From contig NZ_JH597773.1 of the NCBI RefSeq assembly GCF_000243335.1, forward strand, positions 4,253-68,252: 64,000 nucleotides of DNA. The letters are read 5' to 3'. This document shows positions 8,741-28,145 of this stretch, piece after piece. The notes below the pieces were generated by a model. It worked only from the letters and a program-made list of their open reading frames with translations. It searched no databases and was not told the origin of the DNA. The stretch is from Leptonema illini DSM 21528. GTDB lineage: Bacteria; Spirochaetota; Leptospiria; Leptospirales; Leptonemataceae. Position 1 is the stretch's first letter. Each line of letters starts with the position of its first letter. Made by a program: the position numbers and the translations under genes.

Positions 8741-11700
8741 CTAACCGGCCTTTGCTGCCAGCTGCTCCTGTAGCGGAGCCGTCAGGGCCCGCATGGCGAC
8801 CAGCAGCGACTGCAGAATGGCGTCATGAGATACAGGCTGCTTCGAGGCACCCTTCTGCGATGCCTGCAGAGCCTTAAAATACAGCACATTGTTCTTCCCG
8901 TCCCGCACAAAGAAGCCCAGGTTCTTCTTGAGAATCTCAATCATATGCTGAATGGGCACGCGGAAGCTCTCCCCGGCCTTGAAGTGGATCAGCTCGCCCT
9001 CTTCGTAGATATTCTCGAATCCGCAGAGCGAGCCAAGCGTACGGATGCGCTCCACAAGCACAAAGACCTCGCCGGCCTTATCGGGCGGCCCGAACCGATC
9101 CTTCATCTCGTCGGCAAGAGCGGCGACCTCTTCTTCGGTGCGAGCGGCCTCGAAACGCTTGTAAAACTCGATGCGCTGCCGCGTATCCTCGATGTATTCC
9201 TCTGAGAGAAAGAAGTCCGTATTCAGGTTCACCGTGCAGCGAACCTCGATCTCAAGCTCTTCGCCCTTCAGCCGTTTGACGGCGTTATCCAGAAGCTTGA
9301 TATACAGCTCATAGCCGACCTGTATAATATCGCCCGACTGTTCTTTACCGAGAACGTTGCCCGCACCGCGGATCTCGAGATCGCGCATGGCCACCTTGAA
9401 GCCTGAACCGAGCTCCTGATATTCAAGCAGCGTGTTCAGGCGTTTCATCGCCTGCTCGGTCAGTACCTTGCTGCCCTGGTGAAAGAAATAAGCATAGGCC
9501 TGGCGGCTCGATCGCCCCACCCGTCCGCGAATCTGATAGAGCTGCGAGAGGCCAAACTGATCGGCGCGGTCGACGATGAGGGTGTTTACGTTGGGGATGT
9601 CGATTCCGTTCTCGATGATGGCCGTCGTTAACAGAAGATCGAACTTGCGCTCGGTGAAATCGAGCAGGATCTGTTCGATATCGTCTTCATGCATCTGGCC
9701 GTGCAGCGTCGTGAAACGCAGCTCGGGCAGCAGCATGCGCAGTCGCGCACCGACCATGTCGAGACTCTGGATGCGATTATGCAGATAAAAGATCTGACCG
9801 CCTCGCTCCAGTTCACGATGCACCGCTTCGATGAGCGCTGCGTCGGAATCCTCGAGCACGAAGGTCTGCACGGGCTTGCGATCGCGCGGAGGCGTCTGAA
9901 TCACCGAAAGATCGCGGATGCCGGTTAACGAAAGATGCAGCGTTCGCGGAATGGGAGTGGCCGAGAGCGTGAGCACGTCGACCTGCGTTTTCAGCTTCTT
10001 CAAGGCCTCTTTATGCACGACGCCGAAGCGCTGCTCTTCGTCGATGACAAGAAGCCCCAGATTGCGGATCTTCACGTCCTTTGCAAGCAGCGCGTGCGTT
10101 CCGATGACGACGTCGACCTCGCCCGAAGCGAGAGACTCTTTGATGCGACGTATCTCGCCGGGCGTGCGAAACCGCGAAACCCAGTCGACACGCACGGGAA
10201 AATTCGCGAACCGCTCCCTGAAGTTCTTGAAATGCTGCAGGGCCAGGATCGTCGTCGGGCAGATCACGACGGCCTGCTTACCGCCCATCACGGCCTTGAA
10301 AACGGTGCGGATGGCCACCTCGGTCTTGCCGTAGCCCACGTCGCCGCAGATCAGGCGGTCCATCGGCCGCGGCGCCTCCATATCCTCTTTCGCCGCCTGA
10401 ATGGCCATCAGCTGGTCGGGCGTCTCATCAAAAGGAAACTCCGCCTCGAACTCTTCCTGCCATACCGTATCGGCGGGAAAGGCATAACCCTGCTTCTTCG
10501 CGCGAGCCGCATAGATCTGTATGAGCTCTTCGGCGAAGGCCTCGATGTTCTTCTCGACCTTCTCGCGGATCTTCTTGAACGAGGCGCGGCCCAGATGATC
10601 GAGCTGCGGATTCGACTCGGGTGCCACATACTTCTGCACCATCGAGATCTGGTCGAGTGGCACAAAAAGGCGATCCTGCTCGGCGTATTCGAGCACGAGA
10701 AAGTCTCTTTCACGACCGGCCGCCTTCATGCGTTCGAGCTTCACAAAACGACCGACGCCGTGATTGATATGAACGATGACGTCGCCTTCGCGCAGATCGA
10801 GATACGAGTCGATGGGCGCCGATCCCGTCTTCTTGAAGCGCATCCGCTTCTTATAAGAGCGCCCGAAGATATCAGAATCGGTCCAGAGATACAACCGCTC
10901 TTCGGGAAGCTCGAATCCGGTTTCGCGAAGAGACTGCACAAGCACGATGCGCGAAGAGCCGCCCGAAGAAGCGACCTTTGTATCCGGTCCGCTCCATTCA
11001 ACGGCCTCATGCGGCACCGATTCGGATTTCAGAATCCCCGAGATGCGCTGGATCTGCGCCGTATATGGAGACGTGATGATAACGGAGCCGCCGCCTTCAA
11101 GGATCTCAAGGGCGCGTTTGCGAAACTCCGTCATGCGGCCCGAAAAGGTCGACGGCTCGCGAATGGGAATGTCGGACGCCGCCACCTCGCCCGTATCAAG
11201 ATCCGTATGATGACTGTGAAAGACGATGCGCTGTATATCCTCTTCGCTGGCCGCGTCGTTATCCCGATCGAGCAGGATGGCCGCGTCCCGAAACAGAAGA
11301 TCATCGGGCGAAACGGTTATGCGAACCTCGCTTTCCCGTTCGTATAACGTGTCGTATTCGCGCTCCACGCGAAGAGCCCTGTCCAGGGCGGCGCCATCCG
11401 AATCGAAGGTTAACACCGGCGCAACGGAAAAGAGATCGATCACCGATCTGTACGGGCTGATCAGCGGAAGCAGCTCTTCAAGCCCCGCCTGGTCGCGACC
11501 GTTCGCCGCCTTTATCCCGCCATGCTCATCGTTCAGCCAGTCCGGACGACGCAGATCATCGGCGAACTTCGCCTTTGCAATCGCCTGTTTCAGTTTAGCA
11601 AGGCCTTTCTCATCGGCGATGGCCTCAGAGGCCGGCAGGATCTTCACACTATCGACGGGCTTCAGACTGCGCTGTGATTCTGGATCAAACTCGCGCAGCG

Positions 11701-12370
11701 ACTCCACCTCGATATCGAAAAAGTCGACGCGCACCGGCCGATCGGATTGCACGGCGTAAACGTCGAGCAGCGAGCCTTTCAGACAGAACTCGCCAGGCCC
11801 TTCCACTCGTTCAGAGCGATGATAGCCTATGGCGACAAGCTGCTCCATAAGAAGGCGCGGCTCGATGGTCTGCCCTTTTTTCAGAATAACGGTTCGGCTC
11901 TGCCAGAGCTGCGGATCGGGCAGCCTGCGCAAAAACGCCCCGGCCGGAACGATGAGCAGAATCGGATCAGACGACAGAAGACGATCCAGCGCTCTAATAC
12001 GTCGGCCTGACAGCACCATATCGTGCCGCGACCATTCATAGGGGATGCCGTCCATCTCGGGCAGCACGACGATCCGCGCCGGATCAATAAAAAGCGACGC
12101 CTCTGAGGCCAGCGTATCGGCCTCGGGCGTTCCCGTCGTCACGTAGACCACAGAACGGCCCGACGCCTGAGAAAGCTTTAATAGAGAGGCAAGGGCCAGG
12201 CTGCGGGAGCCGGGCAGGATACCAAAAAGCGTAGTAATCTCGGCCGGTCGCGCAAGCAGCGGGGCCAGATGGCGGGAGGCAAAACGATCGACAACGGGAG
12301 AAAGAGACACCCGGTTCCTGTTTTTTATGAACCGGAGATCGGTAAATACCTTTTCAGGGAGCTGAATCAT
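8741..12370 (-). CDS. mfd: Transcription-repair coupling factor Mfd
   Basis: 1209 residues, close to the family norm of about 1150. Mfd removes RNA polymerase stalled at DNA lesions and recruits the UvrABC excision machinery. Visible parts are a UvrB-like N-terminal region, the RNA-polymerase-interaction segment (EGDVIVHINHGVGRFVKLE), and a RecG-like SF2 translocase with Walker A GDVGYGKTE near residue 677, Walker B DEEQ near 777, TLSATPIPRTLH, and the motif V/VI region NTLIVDRADQFGLSQLYQIRGRVGRS. The C-terminal TRCF domain follows. The gene is intact and divergent from the P83/100 gene. Confidence 0.97.
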   Translation of the reverse strand: MIQLPEKVFTDLRFIKNRNRVSLSPVVDRFASRHLAPLLARPAEITTLFGILPGSRSLALASLLKLSQASGRSVVYVTTGTPEADTLASEASLFIDPARIVVLPEMDGIPYEWSRHDMVLSGRRIRALDRLLSSDPILLIVPAGAFLRRLPDPQLWQSRTVILKKGQTIEPRLLMEQLVAIGYHRSERVEGPGEFCLKGSLLDVYAVQSDRPVRVDFFDIEVESLREFDPESQRSLKPVDSVKILPASEAIADEKGLAKLKQAIAKAKFADDLRRPDWLNDEHGGIKAANGRDQAGLEELLPLISPYRSVIDLFSVAPVLTFDSDGAALDRALRVEREYDTLYERESEVRITVSPDDLLFRDAAILLDRDNDAASEEDIQRIVFHSHHTDLDTGEVAASDIPIREPSTFSGRMTEFRKRALEILEGGGSVIITSPYTAQIQRISGILKSESVPHEAVEWSGPDTKVASSGGSSRIVLVQSLRETGFELPEERLYLWTDSDIFGRSYKKRMRFKKTGSAPIDSYLDLREGDVIVHINHGVGRFVKLERMKAAGRERDFLVLEYAEQDRLFVPLDQISMVQKYVAPESNPQLDHLGRASFKKIREKVEKNIEAFAEELIQIYAARAKKQGYAFPADTVWQEEFEAEFPFDETPDQLMAIQAAKEDMEAPRPMDRLICGDVGYGKTEVAIRTVFKAVMGGKQAVVICPTTILALQHFKNFRERFANFPVRVDWVSRFRTPGEIRRIKESLASGEVDVVIGTHALLAKDVKIRNLGLLVIDEEQRFGVVHKEALKKLKTQVDVLTLSATPIPRTLHLSLTGIRDLSVIQTPPRDRKPVQTFVLEDSDAALIEAVHRELERGGQIFYLHNRIQSLDMVGARLRMLLPELRFTTLHGQMHEDDIEQILLDFTERKFDLLLTTAIIENGIDIPNVNTLIVDRADQFGLSQLYQIRGRVGRSSRQAYAYFFHQGSKVLTEQAMKRLNTLLEYQELGSGFKVAMRDLEIRGAGNVLGKEQSGDIIQVGYELYIKLLDNAVKRLKGEELEIEVRCTVNLNTDFFLSEEYIEDTRQRIEFYKRFEAARTEEEVAALADEMKDRFGPPDKAGEVFVLVERIRTLGSLCGFENIYEEGELIHFKAGESFRVPIQHMIEILKKNLGFFVRDGKNNVLYFKALQASQKGASKQPVSHDAILQSLLVAMRALTAPLQEQLAAKAG

Positions 12371-12458
12371 CCGCTCACCCCGAAAAACCAGAAATCCCCT
12401 TGAATTTCAGCCTGTAAAGAAACGATAATAGAGACAGCGTCATCTCTGTGAAATTGAA

Positions 12459-12486
12459 TTGACCGATCACGCAATTCTTCTATTAA
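12459..12486 (+). promoter_or_regulatory. Candidate sigma-70 promoter for the P83/100 gene
   Basis: TTGACC (12459-12464), a 16-bp spacer and TATTAA (12481-12486) lie 22 bp before the start codon. A ribosome-binding site AAAGGAGAA sits between them. The call rests on consensus match and position only. Confidence 0.45.
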
Positions 12487-12508
12487 AAGAGATCGAAAGG
12501 AGAATCGA

Positions 12509-14224
12509 ATGTCCCGTCTGAGAATCATAGCCTCGTTGATGGCAGTCATGCTGTTTGCCGGCATCACCGGCCCCGTTTTCTCGCAGGAGAAGCCCAGCAT
12601 CGCCGAAGAGGCGCTTACCGCTCCGACCGTGCGCTTTGAAAACCGCACCAATCGTCGGGCCACACCGGCCGCCCGTCAGTATGAACGCAACCTTGGCATC
12701 CGCATCGCCGAGAACGCCATTAACGACCGCACCGCCCCCGTCGCCGATATTCAGATCTTTCGCGTCTTCGACGCAAACAAAGAGAAGTACGGCGCCGACG
12801 TCATCGTGCTCGGTCCAAAAACCGATTTCGGTCATATCCTGGCAATCCAGCGCGTCATCGCCGGCTATCTCGAACGAGCCTTCGAGTTCAAGCCCGAGCA
12901 GGCCGAAACGATGTCTCTTTTCATCATCTACTACAATGCCGAGATCCGCTCGCGTCCCGAGCTGATCGAGAAGAGCTTCTCAGATGCCGTCATCGCAAAG
13001 CTTGATGCGAAGAAGGCCGGTATCGATCGTTCGTATAAGAACTGGCCCGGCAAGACGATGATTCTGATTCCGCTGCGCAAGAACGTGGTGCGCCCCGATA
13101 AGGCCGACATCGATCGCGAAGAGATCAAGAAAGAAACCGAAGACAACAAAGACGTAAAAAAAGACGAGAAAGACGCCCTTGATAAGGTCGACGCCGAGCG
13201 TACGAAAGACGATCAGACGAAACTCGATCAGAAGAAAAGCGAGCTTGATATAAAGCAAGAGCAGATCGACCAGCAGAAGAAAGATCTCGAAAAGGAAGAA
13301 CAGGAATTCAAAAAGGATCTCGTCGACACAGGCAAGAAGCTCGAAGAACTGCGTAAAGATCCGGTCAAAAACGCCGTAGAGATCAAGAAAGAAGAGCAGA
13401 AGCAGCAAGATCTCGCGAAGAAGCAAGAAGAAGTCAAGAAGCAACAGGAAGAGGTCAAGAAGCAAGAGCAGACCGTAACGCAGGAGAAGAAAGAGGTTCA
13501 GGAACAGAAAACCGATACTCCCTCGCGTCAGGAAGAGAAGAAGGATCAATCCACTTCAACCACCGACACCACAAAGACTGAAGAACAGAAGAAAGAAGAA
13601 GTAAAGAAAGACGAAACGATAGCGAATCTGCAGAAAGAGAAAGAAGAGCTGCAAAAAGAGATCGAGAAGAAAGAAGAGCTGAGTGAGAACGTCGTGCTCG
13701 AAAAGATTCTCTTCATGCGAGTTCAGTCTATTGAGAAAGGCCATTACTCGAACGAACTGTGGTACGTAGACACAAACAAAGACGATACGCTCTTCAGAAG
13801 CCCGTTCACCAAGATCTGCAGCCGTGACTTCGTCGCCGTTCCCGATCAGGGTGTGATGGTCGCCGGTTATGCAGGCGACAGCCATGAGCAGAGCGACCAC
13901 TTCCTCGTGCTGCTCGACCCCGAAAACCTCGAGTTCAAAAAGCAGAGCAACGAATCGGTGTTCTGGAATACTCCGATGATCCTGCGTGACGGAAAGATCT
14001 ACGCCGTCGAAAGCTTCAACGGACAGTATTTCCTCTCTCGCTTCAATCCTGACCTGACGCTCGATGCCCGCTCTTCAGAAGGCATGAGCCCACATTCCGA
14101 GATCACATTCTTCAAAGACAAGATCTACGTAACGGGTCAGGATAAAGACGGACGACCGACGACCATTCAGGTCTTCAATCGATCCGATCTGAAGCTTCTC
14201 AAGACGATTACTCCCCCCAAATAA
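12509..14224 (+). CDS. P83/100-family secreted protein
   Basis: 571 residues with a cleavable signal peptide (hydrophobic ~7-22, cleavage after FSQ). The N-terminal domain (residues ~35-200) reads PTVRFENRTNRRATPAARQY and later AFEFKPEQAETMSLFIIYYN. A very charged Lys/Glu/Gln coiled coil of about 190 residues follows (~205-395), then a C-terminal beta-rich region (LWYVDTNKDDTLFRSPF, GVMVAGYAGDSHEQS) with short repeats. This three-part layout matches the spirochaetal P83/100 antigen family known from Borrelia; the function there is not established. A terminator follows directly. Confidence 0.75.
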   Translation: MSRLRIIASLMAVMLFAGITGPVFSQEKPSIAEEALTAPTVRFENRTNRRATPAARQYERNLGIRIAENAINDRTAPVADIQIFRVFDANKEKYGADVIVLGPKTDFGHILAIQRVIAGYLERAFEFKPEQAETMSLFIIYYNAEIRSRPELIEKSFSDAVIAKLDAKKAGIDRSYKNWPGKTMILIPLRKNVVRPDKADIDREEIKKETEDNKDVKKDEKDALDKVDAERTKDDQTKLDQKKSELDIKQEQIDQQKKDLEKEEQEFKKDLVDTGKKLEELRKDPVKNAVEIKKEEQKQQDLAKKQEEVKKQQEEVKKQEQTVTQEKKEVQEQKTDTPSRQEEKKDQSTSTTDTTKTEEQKKEEVKKDETIANLQKEKEELQKEIEKKEELSENVVLEKILFMRVQSIEKGHYSNELWYVDTNKDDTLFRSPFTKICSRDFVAVPDQGVMVAGYAGDSHEQSDHFLVLLDPENLEFKKQSNESVFWNTPMILRDGKIYAVESFNGQYFLSRFNPDLTLDARSSEGMSPHSEITFFKDKIYVTGQDKDGRPTTIQVFNRSDLKLLKTITPPK

Positions 14225-14245
14225 GGGCGCATCACTCCCATTCCC

Positions 14246-14280
14246 GAAAAACCACCTGCATCACGCAGGTGGTTTTTTTG
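14246..14280 (+). terminator. Rho-independent terminator
   Basis: A 9-bp stem ACCACCTGC-ATCAC-GCAGGTGGT followed by a T run, 26 bp after the P83/100 stop codon. Confidence 0.85.
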
Positions 14281-14310
14281 TCTATTTGAGCACCAGGCGG
14301 GGTTCGGGTG

Positions 14311-16023
14311 GAGTCTGTCGAAAAACCTATCTCGTTAAGCGCGTGAGCTCCCGGTCGCCCGACCGGGCTCTTGCTCAGATATTGTCAGCCGCAATCGGAT
14401 TTACCCGGACAAACCCGATCATTCGGGCAAGGTTATGGGCAATGCACCGCTCAGACCATTCAACTTGAACCCTTTCTCTTGTTCGCCGCAAGAACTGCCA
14501 GCCATTACGAGCACTTTTCATCACACCAAAGACGCCCTCGACAGATGGAAATCGGCGAGCATAGGTTTTCTTCCCATCTGGAGTTGCCAGCTTCTCTCTC
14601 ATGAGAAGGGTAAGGGGATTGGAAATAGACCGCATCCCCGTTTTCTTTTTTTTGCTTCCATGATGGGGAGGTAAACTACGGACTTGTAAATCGGGAATAT
14701 GTTTGGTCTGAATCCAGAGCTCTTTGCGCTTGCCTTCCGGGCCAATACATTGCTCTTTCATAGAGCACCGGGAACAGCCATAACGTCGATAGTGCCGGTA
14801 GAGGACTCCCTGTAGATTTCTCTCGCGCTGGAAGGTGAGGATTTCGCCGGCCGGACACTGAAAGCAATCGTTGTCTCGGTCGTAGTGGAATTGCAACAAG
14901 GCATGGCTGCTCTCAATCAGAGGCGGTTCAGCGGCAGCCTCATTTCTTTCCTCCGGCTTGATCTTACCGCCGGTCTTCTTGTGTGCCAGTTCCCGGTCTG
15001 GCATATAGAGGTCATGCCCTGTAAGCTCTTTGAGAATATTCTCGCTCGCATATCCACAATCGAGAACGTATTTGATTTCGTCTGTTTTTTGGGAAGGAAC
15101 TCCGCCTTTACGCCCTCAACTCTGTTCACAAGCGAACTGGTGAATGTACTGTCGCTCTGTCCCGTAACAATTTCCTGATAAACAATCATGCCACTCTGGA
15201 AATCCACTGCATTCTGGGCCGAATAACCCACGATGAAGCTGTTGGATCCGTCTTTGTGCCAGTCTGCATCTGGATCTGTAAGATGAACTCGCTTTCGGTC
15301 AGGTCTGGATTTCAAGAACTCCAGCCCCAGAGACAGCTTCTCTTTCTGGACCTCCAGTTGTTGGATTTTCTTTGCCAGTAATTCCTGTTCTGCATCGTTC
15401 TGTGATGCCTCCCATTCATCGTAGCGTTTCTTACAGACAGATTCAAGATGCTCGTAACGCCTTTCAAGTTCCTCGCGAGTGCCTATATCCCGTCTGTTTG
15501 CACTGGCCTTGATCTTTGTGCTGTCAATGCTGACGGTATCCAGATCGATGAATCCCGATTCGATACCGAGGAACACTGTCTGCGTGAACAATTCCTGAAT
15601 TGCTGCCGCATGCCTCAGCCGGAACTTTCCGAGGGTTGAATGATCCATCTCCATCCCACCGGACAGATACATCAAATCTGCACGCTGTCCGAGATCTCGC
15701 TCAAGGGCTCGCATGGAAAGGTTTCCATACAACAATGAATAGATGATGATAGCCAGAACTCGGTCGGGCGGCATGGCCGGGCGACCTCCCTGCTTCGAAT
15801 CATTCCTGTAACTCGCATCAAAGCGGCTGAGATCTAGCCGCCGGACCGTCTCAAGCAGGCGGGAGATGGGATGATCCTCCGGAAACAACTCCGAGAAATT
15901 CAAGATAACGATCTGGCTCTGATCAGAGTCAGGCTGTTTGTAGCGTGCCATGCTCCCCGATAATCTACCCGGCCGGTAATTTCCAGGGGAATTCAGAATT
16001 GATTCAGGTTTTTCGACAGACTC
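14311..16023 (-). mobile_element. IS1182-type insertion sequence with 4-bp target duplication
   Basis: Perfect 18-bp inverted repeats GAGTCTGTCGAAAAACCT at 14311-14328 and (reverse complement) 16006-16023 enclose one transposase gene. A 4-bp direct repeat GGTG flanks the element (14307-14310 and 16024-16027), showing a clean insertion. Total length is 1713 bp. The transposase reading frame is split at a run of six adenines. Confidence 0.9.
14375..15951 (-). CDS. IS1182-family transposase, frameshifted
   Basis: Translation from the ATG at 15951 inside the element reads MARYKQPDSDQ, DHPISRLLETV, GRPAMPPDRVLAIIIYSLLYG and DTVSIDSTKIKASANR, the IS1182 N-terminal domain and first catalytic Asp region. 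The frame is then lost and the -1 frame continues with EIKYVLDCGYASENILKELTG, a CXXCXXXXXC-like region (CSRCSMKEQC) and KKTYARRFPSVEGVFGVMKSARNG. The switch occurs near the A6 run at 15085-15090 (minus-strand CCCAAAAAACAG). It may be programmed slippage or an inactivating mutation; the rest is undamaged. Confidence 0.85.
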
Positions 16024-16125
16024 GGTGGGCGAAGGTGTGGCGCAGCGGGCCACAGAGGGTGCGAGCGGGCCGAAAAGGACTGGACGGATGAGAGAGAAGA
16101 TACAAGTTTATGAAGAGGGATAGCC

Positions 16126-16344
16126 ATGGGCAAACTGACACTGGACGAAGTAAGAAACGCGATAAAAGAGCTGACTCCTGAAGAACAGGAGATCCTGTCG
16201 GCTGATCTTGCCCGGACGAAAGAAACACACCCAGACGTACTCGCCGCATGGACTGCCGAAAGTGAAAGGCGACTTGATGAATTCCTGGCGGGCCGGCAGG
16301 ATGCATACTCTATCGACGAAGTGCTCGCTCGCTATAAGAAATGA
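16126..16344 (+). CDS. Addiction-module antitoxin (PF09720 type)
   Basis: 72 residues: a helical N-terminus LTLDEVRNAIKELTPEEQEILSADL, then the family signature AAWTAESERRLDEFLAGRQDAYSIDEVLARYKK. Such proteins are the unstable antitoxins of ParE/RelE-type modules, with the C-terminal region wrapping around the toxin. Its stop overlaps the toxin start by 4 bp (ATGA), as in intact modules. The neighbouring toxin is internally deleted, so this antitoxin may now be orphaned. Confidence 0.8.
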   Translation: MGKLTLDEVRNAIKELTPEEQEILSADLARTKETHPDVLAAWTAESERRLDEFLAGRQDAYSIDEVLARYKK

Positions 16345-16535
16345 AGCCTGTTCGATTGCTTGCAGGTGCCAGGAAAGAACTATATGCAGCTGTCAGTCAG
16401 CGGATCCGCTGCGCATCAACGGAGAGTTTTCCATATAACCTGTTCTATTCTGTCCTGAGCGACGAAATCCTCGTTATCTCGATCGCCCATCAGCGTCGTC
16501 GCCCCCGACGATGGGACGATCCCTCGCCTCACTGA
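16341..16535 (+). pseudogene. ParE/RelE-type toxin with internal deletion
   Basis: 64 residues. The start MKPVRLLAGARKELYAAVS and the end FPYNLFYSVLSDEILVISIAHQRRRPRRW are recognisable ParE-type ends (the usual C-terminus is YxLFYxVxxdxIxVlaiaHqrRdP.yW). The middle of about 35-45 residues, which holds the remaining helix and strands, is missing and replaced by QRIRCASTES. At 64 instead of about 95-100 residues the fold could not form normally. It was probably a toxin that has been disabled while keeping the operon frame. Confidence 0.75.
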
Positions 16536-18787: not shown

Positions 18788-19999
18788 ATGGCTACAGTGC
18801 GACCAGATTTTCCAGTCTATTCAGGTCGCTTGGTACGAGCCTGGTCCTCAAAACGTCCTAAAATCGCAGCCTCTACCGCAATAAAAACGAAGAAAAAAAG
18901 CAGTCATTCCGCTGAAAACCGACCCTGTCTTTCCGTGAATGCCTATTTTGAATACCTGATCAGCACGCCCGATGGCGAGGTTCTGTCTATCCTCAACGAA
19001 AGCTCCCATCTCAAGATTTACACGCGTCGTTTCGGTCCTGAAACGGTCGCAAAAATCCGATCCATCCCCGGACGCCGGTGGGATGCAGAGCAAAGATGCT
19101 GGATGATTCCCTGTTCCCCGGAGCGGCTGAGGGAGATCCTGCATCTTTTTCGGGCAACGCCCTACTACCTCTCCGGGCAGATCGCTGCTCGACTGGATCA
19201 GGAGATGACGCTACAGGCAATGGGTAGAAACTCGCGCCGCGCCTACATGTTCTGGATTCAGGATTTCCTGTATTTTCTAAACCGTCCGCCCGGATCGGAC
19301 GATGCAGAGGCAATCCACGATTACCTTGCGATTAAGGGAAAGTCGAGCCGCGTCAATACCGTGCTGTTGATCCGCGCCGCTCTGCGGTTCCTGTATAATA
19401 GAGCGCTGCGCACCGCCTTTCCTGATATTCCGGGATTGAAAAAGGACAGGATCCTCCCCACAATCATGTCAAAGCAAGAGGTGCTGCGAATCCTGAAGGA
19501 ATGCCGGAATCCAAAGCACCGACTTCTCTTGATGCTTGTCTATTCGGCCGGACTTCGCGTAAGTGAAGCCGTGTCGCTACGTTCCATCGATATACAGATG
19601 GATCGCAATCTGATCCATATTCGCCGGGCAAAAGGAAGAAAGGACCGCTATGTTCTGCTTTCGAGAATCGTTCTGGATGATCTGAAGCGGGTATTTCCAT
19701 CGCTTGAAGGAGATTTCTGGATTTTCCCGGGCCAGAAAAACGGGCGACATCTGTCGATCCGGAGCGCGCAACAGGTATTCAAGAATGCACTTGAAAAGGC
19801 GAAGATTCACCGAAACATTTCCATTCACGGTTTACGACATGCCTTTGCCACGCACCTGCTTGAAAACGGCACGGATATACGCGTGATTCAAAAGCTGCTC
19901 GGTCATTCCAGTCTGCAAACGACACAGATCTATACGCATGTAACGAAGCAGCATATCCATAAAATCATAAGCCCACTCGATCAGATGAACGAGCCGTGA
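18788..19999 (+). CDS. Tyrosine recombinase of the cassette array
   Basis: 403 residues as drawn; the first ~48 look non-conserved, and an in-frame GTG at 18935 may be the true start. Residues ~75-107 form a module IYTRRFGPETVAKIRSIPGRRW..EQRCWMIP. The SAM-like core-binding domain is at ~130-215 and the catalytic domain at ~225-395, with R257, K282, H347, R350, H373 and nucleophile Y382 all present. The ending SPLDQM resembles the SPLD ending of IntI. The K282-to-H347 spacing of 65 is XerD-like (72) and far from IntI1 (about 106), so the integron-specific insert is absent. It lies directly upstream of repeats and attC-type cassettes, in the same orientation. Confidence 0.9.
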   Translation: MATVRPDFPVYSGRLVRAWSSKRPKIAASTAIKTKKKSSHSAENRPCLSVNAYFEYLISTPDGEVLSILNESSHLKIYTRRFGPETVAKIRSIPGRRWDAEQRCWMIPCSPERLREILHLFRATPYYLSGQIAARLDQEMTLQAMGRNSRRAYMFWIQDFLYFLNRPPGSDDAEAIHDYLAIKGKSSRVNTVLLIRAALRFLYNRALRTAFPDIPGLKKDRILPTIMSKQEVLRILKECRNPKHRLLLMLVYSAGLRVSEAVSLRSIDIQMDRNLIHIRRAKGRKDRYVLLSRIVLDDLKRVFPSLEGDFWIFPGQKNGRHLSIRSAQQVFKNALEKAKIHRNISIHGLRHAFATHLLENGTDIRVIQKLLGHSSLQTTQIYTHVTKQHIHKIISPLDQMNEP

Positions 20000-20074
20000 G
20001 CTGCCACAGGGAGAAGAGGAATGCATGAATTCTACGAAGAATTTTGCCGGCTGTTGGAGGTTCGGGGGCTTCCA

Positions 20075-20238
20075 GGATTATACGCATGCGGGTAACGGGC
20101 GGCAGGGGCGGATTTTATGCATGCGGGAAACGGACGGGGATGGGCGGATTATATGCATGCGGGTAACAGACCGGATGGGCGGATTATATGCATGCGGATA
20201 ACACGAGATTAAACGAATGCGTATAGAACAAGTTATGT
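20075..20238 (+). repeat. Direct-repeat block and candidate attI site
   Basis: Four units of GGATTATATGCATGCGGGTAAC with few changes start at 20075, 20110, 20146 and 20181 (period 35-36). A degenerate fifth is at 20206, then the core-like GTTATGT at 20232-20238. The repeats begin 76 bp after the recombinase stop, and the core is where cassette 1 begins. They share CGGGTAA with the L'' boxes of attC1 and attC4. Recombinase-binding repeats of an attI are the natural reading; this is inferred. Confidence 0.6.
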
Positions 20239-20259
20239 GCAATTATCAAAGAGATTGTT

Positions 20260-20832
20260 ATGACTATTCAATTTAGCGATAGCATTCAGTACGAATCCCA
20301 CCTATACCATTTGTCGAGAAGCGTCCCATTGCTCTCTGCACCGGAAGCTGCATTTCCATTCTCACCAGTCTCTCATAGTTCTGCGAATGTAAAAGGATAC
20401 TTGGCCGAATATGCAATACTTGATGGTCGACTAACGCTGTCCAATCTGAACATATCAGCAACCTATCTCGATTATCTTCGGAGTAAAATCAAACAGACCC
20501 ATGGAAAAAACCATAAACAGTATATTGTTGAGAATGAAGACCGAAGCATTACATGCAAAAATCTGGGAACTTTTATCGACTATACGGGAATATTAATTAT
20601 CGCCAGAACAACTTCAGATGCCACATTTGAATTAAAGGCCACGAGCCCAAGAGATGTATGGTCCGATCTTCTATTAATCGAATTTAAAGCTGGTTTAATA
20701 AATTCCGTCAAAGACTGCCTCTCAATGAGTATTGAACTGCCCGAAGTGGAGAAATTCGATTCCCTCCTCGTCGGGGCTCGAAGCAAGAGGTATATCGACC
20801 GCATTATAGAAACCCATGATAGCGGCACATAA
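20260..20832 (+). CDS. Cassette 1 hypothetical protein
   Basis: 190 residues, not recognised. It is soluble in appearance: no signal peptide or membrane helix. It shows mixed alpha/beta stretches (YLAEYAILDGRLTLSNLNIS, TFIDYTGILIIARTT, DLLLIEFKAGLINSVKDCL). The stop codon falls in the R' box of attC1 (ACATAAC), a hallmark of cassette genes. The start 22 bp after the attI core leaves almost no leader, so expression may rely on a promoter upstream in the repeat or recombinase region. Confidence 0.7.
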   Translation: MTIQFSDSIQYESHLYHLSRSVPLLSAPEAAFPFSPVSHSSANVKGYLAEYAILDGRLTLSNLNISATYLDYLRSKIKQTHGKNHKQYIVENEDRSITCKNLGTFIDYTGILIIARTTSDATFELKATSPRDVWSDLLLIEFKAGLINSVKDCLSMSIELPEVEKFDSLLVGARSKRYIDRIIETHDSGT

Positions 20833-21007
20833 CTCAAAGATTACCCGCTCCGCTCAGGTCGCCAAAGGCGCCTTCGCTCCGGTCTTTGCGCTCCCCACTC
20901 CGTGGGGTCCGGATGTGCGCCAATTTGGAAGATTCAAATGGCGCACACCGGAACGCGCCGCAGACAAATTGCCCTGCGGGCAACTTCGGGTAATCCAGAA
21001 CGTTATG
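20828..21007 (+). repeat. attC1 recombination site
   Basis: Left boxes CATAAC (R') and GATTACCCG (L') mirror right boxes CGGGTAATC (L'') and GTTATG (R''), with unpaired 6-base (TCAAAG) and 6-base (CAGAAC) spacers between the boxes. About 180 bp in total, with an inner imperfect palindrome (GGCGCCTTCG...; TGGGGTCCGGATGTGCGCC / GGCGCACACCGG). It separates cassettes 1 and 2. It is nearly identical to attC4. Confidence 0.8.
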
Positions 21008-21035
21008 CGTCATTTTCTAAAATATGAGATAAGAG

Positions 21036-22775
21036 ATGAATAAATTACAAACAATACAAAATCAAATATATACATCTAGACTGGTCTATGGTATTGATTT
21101 TCTAATTTTCTTGTTATTTTCATTTCTATTACTAGGGCTTTACCATTCATCAAATAATGAGAATCTTTTTGCTCATCTTTCAGCATGGGGAACACTTGGA
21201 AGTCTAGTATTTGCTTCATATCAACACGTATTGCAAAGAATAGACAGAAGAAAAGTCATAGAATACTTCAAGACGGAATCAGAGTCACTTATAAAACCGA
21301 TTGAGCTAATTATTGAAAAGCATTACCCTGAAATTGATCCCACGATCTTTACAAAATGTGAGGAATTAACCCTATCAGCTTGCCTTTCCGAATTTAGTCG
21401 AACAATGAATATTCAAAGTATTGAATATCAGTTTATTTCATCTTATATTGATTATTTACAGCTAAAAACAAAAATTTCTACCGCAGAACTTATATTCATT
21501 AAATACCGTATTATAACTTCTTTTTTCCAAAATAATTTCCCAAAATTCAAAATTGACCATATTGACTTAGGCACATTAAGGGACAATCCAGAGCTTGTTC
21601 GGTTTGGAAAGCTAATTTCCCTGTTTGAAGAAAACAGTTTATTATGTGCTCCATTTGATTTTGACTCTGTCTCTGACTCTGATGGTGAAGATTCACTTTT
21701 TAATTATTTTGAGTTGAGCAGTGCAAAAGTTAAAAAACTATTAGAAGATAACGAGAAAAGGAAAAAAGCAGAAATACTTCTAAGCAAGGCAATTGATAAC
21801 GCCTATACCAATTTAAATCTGTTAAATATTTCCAAACTAGAGGAAAAGATACCAGCTCTATTTAAATACGACGAAAAGTACTCTGCCACCAAAACAAAAT
21901 GGAAAGCTGAAGTAGAAACACATCTAAGAAAAAAAAATAAAATTCAAAGAAATGCTTCTGAAGAAGAAATATCAGACCATGAAAAATTCATTACGGAAGA
22001 ATCGGAACGAATTCTTACCGATATTGATACGATTTTAGGAAGACAACCTTTTAGCAAGGCACTTTACTCATTCAAAAAAGAGATAAAGCAACTCGGAAAA
22101 GATTTTTTCTGGTATATAATATTCCCTGAGAATTTTTCTAACGAAGCTAGGGGGTGGACCCCTGAAAAATTTATCAAGGAGAAAGTTATAAAAAAAGCGC
22201 GAGAACTTCAATCAGAATTCAATGTTGAAATATTGAAAAAATATCCCTTCCTGAAGGGAAAGCTAAAAAGAAAATTAGATGCAAATTACTATATTATATA
22301 TATAGATCCAACAACATTAAAAATCAATGCTGATTTGAGTACAACACCCAAACCTCTTAAAGAAGCATTAACAAAATCATTTTTTAGTTCAGAAGACCGA
22401 GAAGAAAATTTTCAATCACAATTAATTTATCTTAAGCAGGTTATAAATAGCTTGTCCTTATCAGGATTGCTTTTTACAGAGCCTTTCGAAATCCAAGATA
22501 AGTATGCAAAGATTGAAAAAAGAATTATTACACAGAGTGAAAAATTAGGACTAAACATTCGAAATGTGAATTCAATTGCTGAATTGGGAAATAAAAAAGA
22601 TGAGTTGGTGAAAATTGTATACAAGATAATTCACAAAAAAAATCCACCGACCTCAAAAAGATCAATTCATCTAAAGACTATTAATTCAGAGGTAGAAAAG
22701 ATTATTCAGAATGCAATTGATTTGGTTCAAATTATAAGTCAAATGCGTTCCAAGAAAAAAGAAAACGACGCATAA
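21036..22775 (+). CDS. Cassette 2 membrane-anchored hypothetical protein
   Basis: 579 residues. Two hydrophobic helices near the N-terminus (YGIDFLIFLLFSFLLLGLY at ~18-36, and LFAHLSAWGTLGSLVFASYQ at ~44-63) precede a long, charged, mainly helical cytoplasmic part of over 500 residues. No enzymatic motif is recognised. The gene is strikingly AT-rich, with many AAA/AAT/TTA codons, against a GC-rich chromosome, which points to recent acquisition from another source. The stop TAA lies in the attC2 R' box (GCATAAC). A defence or sensing role is only a guess. Confidence 0.8.
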   Translation: MNKLQTIQNQIYTSRLVYGIDFLIFLLFSFLLLGLYHSSNNENLFAHLSAWGTLGSLVFASYQHVLQRIDRRKVIEYFKTESESLIKPIELIIEKHYPEIDPTIFTKCEELTLSACLSEFSRTMNIQSIEYQFISSYIDYLQLKTKISTAELIFIKYRIITSFFQNNFPKFKIDHIDLGTLRDNPELVRFGKLISLFEENSLLCAPFDFDSVSDSDGEDSLFNYFELSSAKVKKLLEDNEKRKKAEILLSKAIDNAYTNLNLLNISKLEEKIPALFKYDEKYSATKTKWKAEVETHLRKKNKIQRNASEEEISDHEKFITEESERILTDIDTILGRQPFSKALYSFKKEIKQLGKDFFWYIIFPENFSNEARGWTPEKFIKEKVIKKARELQSEFNVEILKKYPFLKGKLKRKLDANYYIIYIDPTTLKINADLSTTPKPLKEALTKSFFSSEDREENFQSQLIYLKQVINSLSLSGLLFTEPFEIQDKYAKIEKRIITQSEKLGLNIRNVNSIAELGNKKDELVKIVYKIIHKKNPPTSKRSIHLKTINSEVEKIIQNAIDLVQIISQMRSKKKENDA

Positions 22776-22902
22776 CTGTTTTTTTCGCGCTACGTCCTCC
22801 CGTTCGGTCGTCCTTGGTCCTCGCCGGGTATGCTCCCATTCGGTCGCCCGGCTTCGGACAAAGCCAGCGGAGCTGGCCTTCGCGAAAAAGTATTCGTTAA
22901 GT
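22771..22902 (+). repeat. attC2 recombination site
   Basis: R' CATAAC and L' TTTTTTCGCG on the left mirror L'' CGCGAAAAA and R'' GTTAAGT on the right. The R'' box fits the canonical GTTRRRY exactly. About 132 bp; the interior (TTCGGTCG repeats, CCAGCGGAGCTGG) can fold further. Its sequence differs completely from attC1 and attC4 outside the core boxes. Confidence 0.8.
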
Positions 22903-22917
22903 GAAATCGCCCCGGTG

Positions 22918-23052
22918 ATGAAGAAAGAAAGAAAAAATCAGAGTAAGAGAAGAATGGAAAAGAAAGGTTTCAAGAAAGGATTTGTGGTACTCCCTACTCT
23001 GGGTCGCTATAATATCTGGGATTGCCGAACGAAGATACAGAACTGGAATTAA
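22918..23052 (+). CDS. Possible small basic peptide in cassette 3
   Basis: A 44-codon frame beginning MKKERKNQSKRRMEKKGF. The N-terminal half is extremely Lys/Arg rich. It is the only plus-strand frame of note in this ~240-bp cassette. A 60-codon frame on the minus strand (23079 to 22897) with a hydrophobic stretch is equally possible. Coding status is uncertain; the cassette could be non-coding. Confidence 0.25.
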   Translation: MKKERKNQSKRRMEKKGFKKGFVVLPTLGRYNIWDCRTKIQNWN

Positions 23053-23126
23053 CCATTTGGACCATACATTCATTGTCACAAGAAGAAGTAGAATTATATG
23101 ATAGCAAAAGCAAAGAGGGCGACTTC

Positions 23127-23261
23127 ACTTAACAGCCGATTTCACGCGGCGGCTCCACTGGCGTGGCGCCTTGGTCTTCGCTCGGCGGTCGCTCCATTCG
23201 TCGCTGCTCGCTCAGACACATGCTCCTGTCGTCGCACGTCGTGAAATCTTTTACGTTAGCC
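23127..23261 (+). repeat. attC3 recombination site
   Basis: R' ACTTAAC (exact RYYYAAC) and L' GATTTCACG mirror L'' CGTGAAATC and R'' GTTAGCC (one mismatch to GTTRRRY). Spacers are 4 and 6 bases. About 135 bp, with an interior of repeated TCGCTC-type words. It closes the short cassette 3. Confidence 0.75.
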
Positions 23262-23294
23262 AAAATGGCATGAATAGGAGATGTGAAATAATTT

Positions 23295-23858
23295 ATGGAT
23301 ACGTTTACTAAATTTGGGCTTTATCACTTCAACGTTATCTCGATCTTTCTTTTTGCATTGTTTACTCAATGTAAAATCGAAAAAGATGTGGCCAATACCA
23401 CAGGCCTCCAGACAAATAAATCCGGTGACCCCGGAAATATAGATGGGGTCATTCTATCTAAACATACTTTCAACTTCAACGATACTGTCCTGGGAAATAT
23501 TAAATTCATACCGACTCAAGGGAACGATTATACGGGCTTGCATATCTACATTAAAGAAAATGAAAATCTCATCGAGCTTCCCCGTCCAAATATTGGCCAA
23601 AGGTTCGAAAATCTAAAGGCCGTAGCTTTCCGGGACATAAACGGCGACGGTTTAACTGATATTATTATTGTAGCAGAATATACTTCTGCGATAGGCCCGA
23701 CTGGAAACATTCCCTTCTCCATGCCTCTTTTCTACATCCGGACAAAGAAAGACTGGCTTTTTGACGACAAGCAATCAATCTCTGTAAAAGAAACCTATAA
23801 AGAAGAAAATGTGACAATCGACAACGGCATTGAAAAGTTCAAAGCCCTATATCATTAA
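23295..23858 (+). CDS. Cassette 4 lipoprotein
   Basis: 187 residues. An N-terminal hydrophobic segment FNVISIFLFALFTQC ends in Cys27 in a relaxed spirochaetal lipobox context (LFTQC). The mature part contains AVAFRDINGDGLTDIIIVAEY, a FG-GAP/VCBS-like calcium-binding repeat motif (DxNxDGxxD), suggesting a beta-propeller-like or ligand-binding surface fragment. Probably an outer-membrane or periplasmic lipoprotein. The stop is 36 bp before attC4. Confidence 0.75.
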   Translation: MDTFTKFGLYHFNVISIFLFALFTQCKIEKDVANTTGLQTNKSGDPGNIDGVILSKHTFNFNDTVLGNIKFIPTQGNDYTGLHIYIKENENLIELPRPNIGQRFENLKAVAFRDINGDGLTDIIIVAEYTSAIGPTGNIPFSMPLFYIRTKKDWLFDDKQSISVKETYKEENVTIDNGIEKFKALYH

Positions 23859-23893
23859 TCATTCAGAGAAAGTTTCAATACATATGCCACTTC

Positions 23894-24085
23894 GGCTACC
23901 TCAAAGATTACCCGCTCCGCTCAGGTCGCCGCGGGCGCCTTCGCTCCGGTCTTTGCGCTCCCCTCTTTGTGGGGGGCCGGATGTGCGCCAATTTGGAAGA
24001 TTCAAATGGCGCACACCGGAACGCGCGGTAGACAAATTGTCCGGCCATCCGGCCGGCCAATTTCGGGTAATCCAGAACGTTAGGC
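23894..24085 (+). repeat. attC4 recombination site
   Basis: It resembles attC1 over its whole ~190 bp (GATTACCCGCTCCGCTCAGG, ATGTGCGCCAATTTGGAAGA and GGGTAATCCAGAACGTTA are identical). The R'' box GTTAGGC is canonical. The left R' box has decayed to GCTACC, which may weaken this site. It separates cassettes 4 and 5. Confidence 0.75.
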
Positions 24086-24178: not shown

Positions 24179-24619
24179 ATGACCTTCAGATATCGACAGC
24201 TCGTTCTTCTAATATGCTTCCCCCTTGCCGGTTGTTTTCCTACGCTATACCTTAAGGTCCCTGAATCATCGGCTGACGCCGATGTCGTACGCATCCCGCG
24301 TGGACAGGCGCGGCAGGTGCAAATACTGTCGATCGATGACCACCAATTTGACGGAATCAACAATGACTTCATTATCATCGCACCCGGAAGGCATGAGTTC
24401 CGGTTTACCGCTCCCGGATTCACGGAGCTTGAGGCGAAGCTTACGCGAGTCGTCGAAGCCGGTTCCGTCATTCAGCTATGCCCGGGTCTTAACCGAGAGA
24501 CATACGGGGACTCGTCTCTTTCTCCCGATCAAAGATGGTCCCCCTTCATTCGCACAATCGACGTAACATCGATAAGTGAATCCATGAGTATGATTACAAG
24601 CCATCTCAAAAATGCCTGA
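24179..24619 (+). CDS. Cassette 5 lipoprotein, 3' end replaced by IS5-type element
   Basis: 146 residues. The signal peptide [15 protein letters not shown] ends in a good lipobox (LAGC, Cys19). The mature part contains [13 protein letters not shown] and [21 protein letters not shown], a beta-sandwich-like PEGA-type pattern (APGxHxxxFxApG). The last ~8 residues are encoded by the inserted element. Removing the element and one TA copy, the frame would run from SMSMIT into [12 protein letters not shown] and stop. Likely a periplasmic or surface lipoprotein, probably still made in slightly altered form. Confidence 0.7.
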
Positions 24620-25403
24620 GGAGGATAACGATACAGCCTAACCGGACAAACGAAAGGTAGTTCTCCCAGTACCTCTCGAATCGATTGAGTATTCTGCGAA
24701 AATTCTGGAGCCAGGCAAAGAGTCTTTCGACCTTCCATCTGCGTTTATATCGACGCAGCTCCCGCCCATCCTGTGTGCTCTCCTTTTTCCGGCCCCGTCT
24801 ATGCGGGGCTATCATCTTGATTTTTCTCTTTCGAAGTTGTTTATCCAATTTATCGGAATCATAAGCTCGGTCACCGATAATCCTTCGAGGAGTTTTTCTT
24901 GTGAACTTATGATCAATAGTCTTCTCTACGAGAGTGACTTCATGTGGCGAAGCGCTTTCAATCCAGCAGGCGATAGGAAGACCGGAAGCGTCTGCCATTG
25001 CCATGATCTTGGTCCCTTTGCCACGCTTTGTTTTCCCGATTTTGAGCCCCCTTTTTTAGCCGAAACGAATGTTCCGTCTATGAAGCTCTCTTCAATGTCA
25101 ATTCCACCACGTTCTTCAAGGTCTCTCGCCAGAGCCAGGAGAATCTTTTCAATTGTGCCGTTACGAGTCCACTCCTGAAAGCGACGATGACAACTCTGGT
25201 AAGAAGGATACCTATCCGGTAGATCCTGCCAGCGGGCTCCAGTTTTCAGAATCCACAAGATTCCATTTAAAATACTTCGGGGATCAATTCTCTCCCGCCC
25301 CCTCCCGTCTTCTCGTGGCTTTGGTTCTTTGATAAGCGGCTTTATGATCTTCCATTGGGCATCTGTGATATCCATGATAGAGCTCCTATAGGAGCTATCC
25401 TTG
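24597..25403 (-). mobile_element. IS5-family element inside cassette 5
   Basis: About 807 bp. Proposed ends are CAAG..CTTG with a flanking TA at both sides (24595-24596 and 25404-25405), consistent with the short TA duplications of some IS5 subgroups. The inverted repeats are short and imperfect, so the boundaries are tentative. They are supported by the transposase stop codon at 24606 lying inside the left end. Confidence 0.65.
24606..25375 (-). CDS. IS5-family transposase (two frames, programmed shift likely)
   Basis: From the ATG at 25375 the first frame reads [30 protein letters not shown] and [17 protein letters not shown], then [11 protein letters not shown]. At the A6G5 run (25031-25041) the -1 frame takes over: [56 protein letters not shown]. 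Together they give the DDE domain (DGT, DRAYDSD, E in KVERLF). Split OrfA/OrfB transposases with a shift in an A run are usual in several IS5 subgroups, so this is probably functional. Confidence 0.85.
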
Positions 25404-25405
25404 TA

Positions 25406-25543
25406 CGAACCCCTCGGCAGTACAAGCAAAAAGTACTTGTCAGTAGTTTATATTTGAGATGGCTTCTAATCTCAACCACTGTCTGTGGGCGTACAGAGCC
25501 GACATTAAGAATGTCCTGGAGTAGTTCCTCCTCTGGCGGTTTC
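25406..25543 (+). other. 3' remnant of cassette 5 between IS5 and attC5
   Basis: An open frame continues from inside the element to the R' box of attC5 (ending SSSSSGGFA and the TAA of GCATAAC). Another frame gives a short extension ([12 protein letters not shown]) to the interrupted lipoprotein. Which one was the original 3' end depends on the exact insertion point. Confidence 0.4.
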
Positions 25544-27303: not shown

Positions 27304-27828
27304 ATGTTTCTCAATCTAATAGACAGATCAGAGCCACGAATAGTCAGATTAGAAGAACCGATAAGAATGATCGGCGTTTCTACGAAAACGAGTCTGAAGA
27401 CTATCTATAAAGATACCATGAGGTTAGGCGAAGAATATCAAAAAGCAAAGAATCTAATTCGAAACAAAAGCATTCCCTGGGCCTTCGTTGCCATTAGCAA
27501 AGATTTCAGCGATAACAACAGTCGCTGGGAATACTTAATGGGAGACGTCGTCACGTCCTTTGACGACGGTATTTCCAAAGGGTTAGTCTCCTTTGAGATA
27601 CCGGCAAAGACCTATGCCGTTTTCACAATACGTCCCCGATTCGGCTTTCTGTGGGGTCTGGCTATTGGACTGACGAAACGATATATTTACACACAATGGC
27701 TCCCTGATTCGAAATATGATTCCGACAACACCACCATAGGCGATTTTGAGTACCATGATGAACGTAGTGTAGCACGAAAGCCTTCAATAGATCTATATGT
27801 ATCAATCAAAGAGAAGAATCAAAAATAG
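27304..27828 (+). CDS. GyrI/Cass2-like effector-binding protein
   Basis: 174 residues with the two-lobed effector-binding fold typical of GyrI-like and AraC_E_bind proteins: EPIRMIGVSTKTSLKTIYKD, SRWEYLMGDVVTSF, FEIPAKTYAVFTIR and a C-terminal YIYTQWLPDSKY....DFEYHDER. No DNA-binding domain is attached. Stand-alone members include the integron-associated effector-binding protein Cass2 (PF14526), a cationic-drug binder, which fits the nearby cassette array. A GCCTAAC (exact RYYYAAC) lies 59 bp after its stop. Confidence 0.65.
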   Translation: MFLNLIDRSEPRIVRLEEPIRMIGVSTKTSLKTIYKDTMRLGEEYQKAKNLIRNKSIPWAFVAISKDFSDNNSRWEYLMGDVVTSFDDGISKGLVSFEIPAKTYAVFTIRPRFGFLWGLAIGLTKRYIYTQWLPDSKYDSDNTTIGDFEYHDERSVARKPSIDLYVSIKEKNQK

Positions 27829-27883: not shown

Positions 27884-28145
27884 TCCCGTGCCCGGCTTCC
27901 TTATTATGTCACATCACGCCCGACTGTGGCATCTTAATACTCCTATCTAACCCAGCGTAGCACCATAATACTCCCCGCCCCACAGCGGCATCCCAATCAT
28001 CCTTTTGCACCGACCGTGGCATCTCAGCCTCCCGTTTCGCCCGACCGTGCCATCATAATACTCCCGTCAAACCCCGACGTGACATCCCAAGACTCCCGCT
28101 CCGCCCCACCCTGGCATCCCAATACTCCTGTCAGGCCCGGTCCTG
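27884..28145 (+). repeat. Degenerate ~32-bp tandem repeats, block B
   Basis: About eight units with the approximate consensus CGCCCGACCGTGGCATC--AATACTCCCGT, spaced 28-33 bp. The 420-bp stretch 27829-28248 has no convincing gene; these repeats fill most of it. Unit sequence decay is high, so the array is old or under loose constraint. Confidence 0.65.

Follow-up and report, generated by a model that had tools for sequence, protein, structure and literature searches.

The repeat block at positions 20075-20238 of the window (the whole 64,000-nucleotide stretch of Leptonema illini DSM 21528 DNA analysed here by computation; features in Table 1) is very probably the attI site of a chromosomal integron, run by a tyrosine recombinase without the I2 domain which would capture cassettes as folded strands and serve two arrays in this genome. 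I2 has been described as necessary for cassette capture and known nowhere else (PMC7790495), the additional domain is treated as defining the integron integrase IntI (PMC9668308), and its origin has been posed as a paradox, a chicken-and-egg problem (PMC4792948). If our reading is true, natural cassette arrays of I2-less enzymes make the question of that origin directly testable.

Table 1 Features of the putative integron in the window.
Feature	Position	Strand	Basis or detail
I2-less tyrosine recombinase, 403 aa	18788-19999	+	Pfam Phage_integrase, 7e-41; transcribed toward the array
HARP-like N-terminal domain, recombinase residues 52-125	18941-19162	+	profile match to 4o66, Foldseek, AlphaFold
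attI direct repeat 1	20075-20096	+	repeat finder and consensus matching
attI direct repeat 2	20110-20131	+	repeat finder and consensus matching
attI direct repeat 3, consensus copy	20146-20167	+	repeat finder and consensus matching
attI direct repeat 4	20181-20202	+	repeat finder and consensus matching
Core-proximal (L-type) box, TTAAACGAATGCG	20209-20221	+	kept in the second attI; position as in the TTTACGCAATAC boxes of five relatives
attI core GTTATGT, start of cassette 1	20232-20238	+	end of homology between the two attI copies; complementary to attC1 R''
Cassette 1	20233-21002	+	ORF 20260-20832; attC1 20827-21008
Cassette 2	21003-22896	+	ORF 21036-22775; attC2 22770-22902; 17-nt terminal inverted repeat with one A:C mismatch, at position 11
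Cassette 3	22897-23255	+	attC3 23127-23261; 17-nt terminal inverted repeat with one A:C mismatch, at position 11
Cassette 4	23256-24079	+	ORF 23295-23858; attC4 23894-24085; degenerate R'' GGCTACC

The attI site and cassette array of the window

Tandem Repeats Finder detected an array at 20075-20202 with a period of 35 and a score of 184, the highest of five arrays in the window. Matches of the 22-bp box GGATTATATGCATGCGGGTAAC start at 20075 (1 mismatch), 20110 (2), 20146 (0) and 20181 (1), giving spacings of 35, 36 and 35 bp; no other + strand site in the 64 kb has 7 mismatches or fewer, and two sites on the - strand have 7. A decayed box, TTAAACGAATGCG, starts 28 bp after the box at 20181, and this distance, 28 rather than 35 bp between the core box and the last repeat, is a point against the attI model. 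The repeat finder and the matching thus bear out the original prediction that four good repeats and one decayed copy precede a GTTATGT core. That prediction also held the block to be unusual, which it is, though not mainly for its copy number, as several spirochaete relatives have multiple boxes: the oddity lies in the I2-less recombinase. The word CGGGTAA, which had been noted as common to the repeats and to attC1 and attC4, is present there, but by chance and with no evidential weight: the two strands of the window together hold 14 copies of it, and among attCs it is confined to the homologous pair attC1/attC4 (86% identical), being absent from attC2, attC3, attC5 and both attCs of the second array described below.

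As in integrons, the predicted attI adjoins the recombinase gene, cassettes appear to be inserted at G^TT, and the array consists of cassettes with imperfectly palindromic attC endings. The GTTATGTGC sequence at G20232 is exactly complementary to an R'' box that ends at 20833 and belongs to the attC of cassette 1 itself, and the crossover would fall at G20232^T20233. A strict attC finder that paired each R'' with the R' of the next cassette failed, since R'' matches the 5' end of its own cassette, and pairing of cassette ends was used in its place: a GTTR start was paired with a complementary downstream R'', independently of attI. This gave the pairs 20232-20833, 21002-22776 and 22896-23133.

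The ORF of cassette 1 (20260-20832) matches no Pfam or NCBIfam family. After attC4 the array holds an insertion sequence (24592-25471) bounded by 22-bp terminal inverted repeats, its transposase ORFs lying on the - strand. Further on, the gene at 27304-27828 encodes a Cass2 "integron-associated effector binding protein" domain (E 5.6e-14), which suggests that the array may extend further; no attC chain was detected there. A 64-bp tandem repeat of 1.9 copies lies at 28010-28133.

A second attI and its array

The block recurs once in the genome, 1.73 Mb away at C1:1755183-1755345 (L003:9984-10147), with 84% identity. Homology between the two attI copies begins at repeat 1 and ends at GTTATG, and the TTAAACGAATGCG box is conserved. 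Upstream of the second copy lies an unrelated band-7/HflC-like gene, with no recombinase adjoining. Its first cassette differs from that of the window, and the first cassettes of both arrays start exactly at the core. A different first cassette joined elsewhere than at position 20232 had been proposed as the refutation of the candidate attI; run within this genome, the comparison returned the same junction. Together with the complementarity of the cassette ends, this second copy strongly supports the candidate attI and its junction.

The cassette-end pairs of the second array are 10141-12134, 12245-15656 and 15777-16535 (L003 coordinates). In both arrays each new cassette begins at the end of the preceding attC, and the junctions are fixed because the 5' end of each cassette is complementary to the R'' of its own attC. 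The arrays have attC families in common (82-85% identical), as they should if served by a single enzyme, and the second is presumably an integrase-free platform served in trans by the window recombinase. Cassette 2 of this array contains a Mutator/IS256-like transposase ORF, recognised by eye (L003:13391-14626).

A recombinase lacking the I2 segment

The window recombinase scores 186.7 bits against the integron integrase profile TIGR02249, in two pieces and below the cut-off of 265. Its top NCBIfam score, 192.7 bits, is to NF040815 (XerA), below the curated 220 bits, so that this model does not classify it as XerA either. Its best solved structure is that of IntI4 (PDB code 2a3v), followed by XerA. 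The catalytic Lys and His are 62 residues apart, compared with 103-104 in canonical IntI, and over 132 aligned proteins this spacing is bimodal: 103-104 in canonical IntI and 61-70 in the window protein and its relatives, with outliers at 84 (L156, an IntI) and 17 (L128, a fragment). In the alignment the segment missing between Lys and His is the I2 region, and the window recombinase thus lacks the additional domain of IntI. No canonical integron integrase was found in this genome.

In the phylogenetic tree, IntI proteins with I2 form a single clade (100 SH-aLRT) nested in a wider I2-less group, which does not include the XerC/D-like proteins of this genome. For the cassette-associated I2-less enzymes, a topology test rejected neither placement, as the sister clade of IntI or as a grade from which IntI arose (AU p 0.45 and 0.62).

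Residues 52-125 form a compact domain in the AlphaFold model (pLDDT 90.5). The domain profile A2 has one significant PDB match, 4o66, the HARP substrate recognition domain of SMARCAL1 (E 9.5e-5); Foldseek supports the likeness weakly (E 0.18, probability 0.87), and the curated 25 bits of the HARP family (PF07443) are not reached, relatives scoring 12.8-16.2 bits and the window protein giving no match at E 1. The HARP domain, as the title of the PDB entry also says, binds structured DNA, so its counterpart here could help the recombinase to recognise hairpins. Unlike in SMARCAL1, this putative module is fused to a tyrosine recombinase, with no helicase. Several relatives of the window recombinase also have a HARP-like N-terminal domain; it is not general in I2-less enzymes, since class-level spirochaete relatives have an N-terminal region of another kind.

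I2-less recombinases accompany cassette arrays in two phyla

I2-less relatives were found in Spirochaetota and Bacteroidota. At 56 I2-less loci we detected 53 links between chained cassettes, where shuffles led us to expect 4.7, and none of 22 control loci with other XerA-like recombinases had chained cassettes beside the enzyme. Members of the window's family and order have the array downstream of the recombinase, on the strand that encodes it; the class-level spirochaete relatives have theirs upstream, on the opposite strand. As a held-out set we took the Bacteroidota family of Seonamhaeicola aphaedonensis, in which 101 of 199 sampled genomes carry the recombinase. Chained cassettes were present at each of the 17 loci whose contig was long enough, giving 196 links against 3.2 expected.

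The ends of cassettes that accompany I2-less recombinases pair across 14-22 nt with a single mismatch; it falls at position 11, where A on the 5' side faces C on the 3' side. This A:C was present in 62 of 82 cassettes of the first set and 159 of 191 of the held-out set, compared with none of 29 canonical cassettes. The canonical IntI control is a small one of six loci; these other loci served as the cassette-end control because the chain finder recovers few canonical Treponema arrays. Bacteroidota L stems favour the same mismatch at two other positions: A:C accounts for 36 of their 39 mismatches and G:T is absent. Read on the bottom strand, a top-strand A:C is a T.G wobble, and by folding energy the bottom strand is the more stable at all 45 sites of the first set and 153 of 159 held-out sites (198 of 204 attCs together), compared with 14 of 18 canonical sites. 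We infer that these attCs are recombined as folded bottom strands, as in integrons, although the A:C at position 11 could also be a base-specific contact rather than a wobble.

Most of these attCs lack an extrahelical base in the L stem, and a minority may have one: a bulged L stem was better by more than one pair at 9% of spirochaete, 19% of held-out and 57% of canonical sites. An initial view that all attCs are without extrahelical bases was softened on account of the 19% of Flavobacteriaceae-type (held-out) sites that fit a bulged stem better, and the loss is therefore not absolute.

attI boxes in relatives

Boxes resembling TTTAnCGCAATACG lie between the recombinase and the first cassette in spirochaete relatives. 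Five relatives have one (TTTACGCAATAC) about 19 bp ahead of the core G, in the same place as the box at 20209 in the window. With a matrix trained on other loci only, we found 4, 3 and 3 boxes at loci L040, L041 and L052, against 0.10, 0.17 and 0.47 expected, at spacings that include 36, 37, 40 and 44. Judged from these matches, several spirochaete members have multiple attI boxes, commonly spaced at around 36 bp, most likely because the recombinase binds them. The window boxes score weakly with the relatives' matrix (2.9 bits) because one base of the relatives' box is missing; they look like a divergent variant in the same place, and what we claim to be shared is limited to the position and multiplicity of the boxes. 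The exact window repeat was not found in 60 relatives, nor were repeats detected in relatives by DNA similarity or Tandem Repeats Finder. Most held-out Bacteroidota attIs (L218-L234) carry an inverted repeat that is nearly perfect, spans about 22 bp (for example ATAAACACACTAGTGTGTTTAT) and stops some 5 nt short of the core G, by its sequence a different attI architecture.

Proposed mechanism and alternative explanations

In the mechanism we propose, the recombinase would occupy the GTTATG core and its neighbouring box at 20209, and the four boxes spaced 35-36 bp apart would act as accessory binding sites. The attC of a circular cassette would be offered as a hairpin folded from the bottom strand, and a single strand exchange at G^TT would place the cassette next to the repeats. 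The folded strand would be recognised without I2, probably through its long stems (L arms of 7-12 bp and cassette ends of 14-22 bp) and the stem mismatches that pair only on the bottom strand, perhaps with help from the HARP-like domain. The same enzyme would serve the second attI and its array.

The repeats could have a role other than recombination even if the core is an attI: they could be an operator or promoter, or an array grown by replication slippage. Regulators often bind direct repeats, and the absence of the exact repeat from the relatives and its weak score with their matrix would fit such an origin. We nevertheless think it rather unlikely, as the whole block travels with the core to the second attI, which has no adjacent recombinase gene that the repeats could regulate, and the homology between the two attIs begins at repeat 1; multiple boxes also occupy this place in several spirochaete relatives. 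The sole promoter-like match in 19900-20400 is at chance level and lies outside the repeats, with none above chance in the repeat block. Nor is it probable that the A:C mismatches and the bottom-strand bias reflect sequence-specific binding of cassette ends in double-strand recombination, with no hairpin formed. The confinement of the mismatch to one fixed position, as for a base contact, speaks for this, but A:C dominates the L-stem mismatches of Bacteroidota at two other positions, folding energy favours the bottom strand in both sets, and double-strand sites need no long imperfect stems.

Least plausible to us, and very improbable, is that a canonical IntI built the arrays and has since been lost, leaving the I2-less recombinase, for instance a Xer-type or phage-like enzyme, as a bystander. 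Deletion of I2 inactivates IntI1 (PMC7790495) and attC clusters without an integrase are common (PMC9024848), both of which such a history would accommodate. It would not account for the adjacency of recombinase and array at every held-out locus and at many spirochaete loci, or for the position 11 A:C, which the canonical cassettes examined do not show; a canonical IntI is also absent from the genome, and no arrays lie beside other XerA-like enzymes.

Relation to known systems

Capture by an I2-less recombinase would leave the Leptonema system with much in common with integrons that have a canonical IntI and an attI1-type attI: a recombinase gene beside attI, insertion at G^TT, L and R boxes, a bias toward bottom-strand folding and putative accessory boxes in attI. 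It differs from them in the absence of I2, the lack of an extrahelical base in most L stems, the end stems of 14-22 nt, the A:C at position 11 and the four putative accessory boxes 35-36 bp apart. The chromosomal integrons of Treponema, likewise a spirochaete, also have a recombinase reading toward attI and the array (PMC3607928), but canonical spirochaete IntI controls contain I2 (103 residues between Lys and His) and score above the TIGR02249 cut-off, whereas the Leptonema-type enzymes do neither. Xer-type recombinases such as XerA share the fold without I2, in keeping with the best, though sub-cut-off, NCBIfam score; Xer enzymes, however, resolve dimers at dif and have no cassette arrays beside them. 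In IMEX-type elements such as the CTX phage, XerCD, also I2-less, acts on a folded single-stranded DNA hairpin (PMC4792948), but the Leptonema array has its own recombinase, an attI and many cassettes.

As of 2013 Treponema was the sole spirochaete genus with known integrons (PMC3607928), and a large survey listed Salinibacter alone as having a complete integron in Bacteroidetes proper, the others being in the related Chlorobi and Ignavibacteriae (PMC9024848). We found no description of I2-less integrons in spirochaetes or Bacteroidota in the literature searched, which left most subscription papers and all preprints outside. Provisionally, then, these loci represent a previously unrecognised branch of integrons, and judging by the loci collected it is apparently widespread; if so, surveys with IntI profiles miss many integrons, for example in about half of the sampled genomes of the held-out family. 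A broader proposal, for and against which we find the case evenly balanced, is that I2-less integrons are a separate, widespread class in which wobble-marked bottom-strand hairpins replace extrahelical bases, recognition resides elsewhere in the protein, and descent is from a state before I2; cassette capture would then have preceded I2.

A weak, possible two-cassette chain accompanies an I2-less recombinase of Candidatus Peregrinibacteria (L103, 5557-7844). Three Flavobacteriaceae-type genomes (G296, G338 and G456) encode two or three such recombinases each, and G338 has arrays at both of its copies (L220 and L221).
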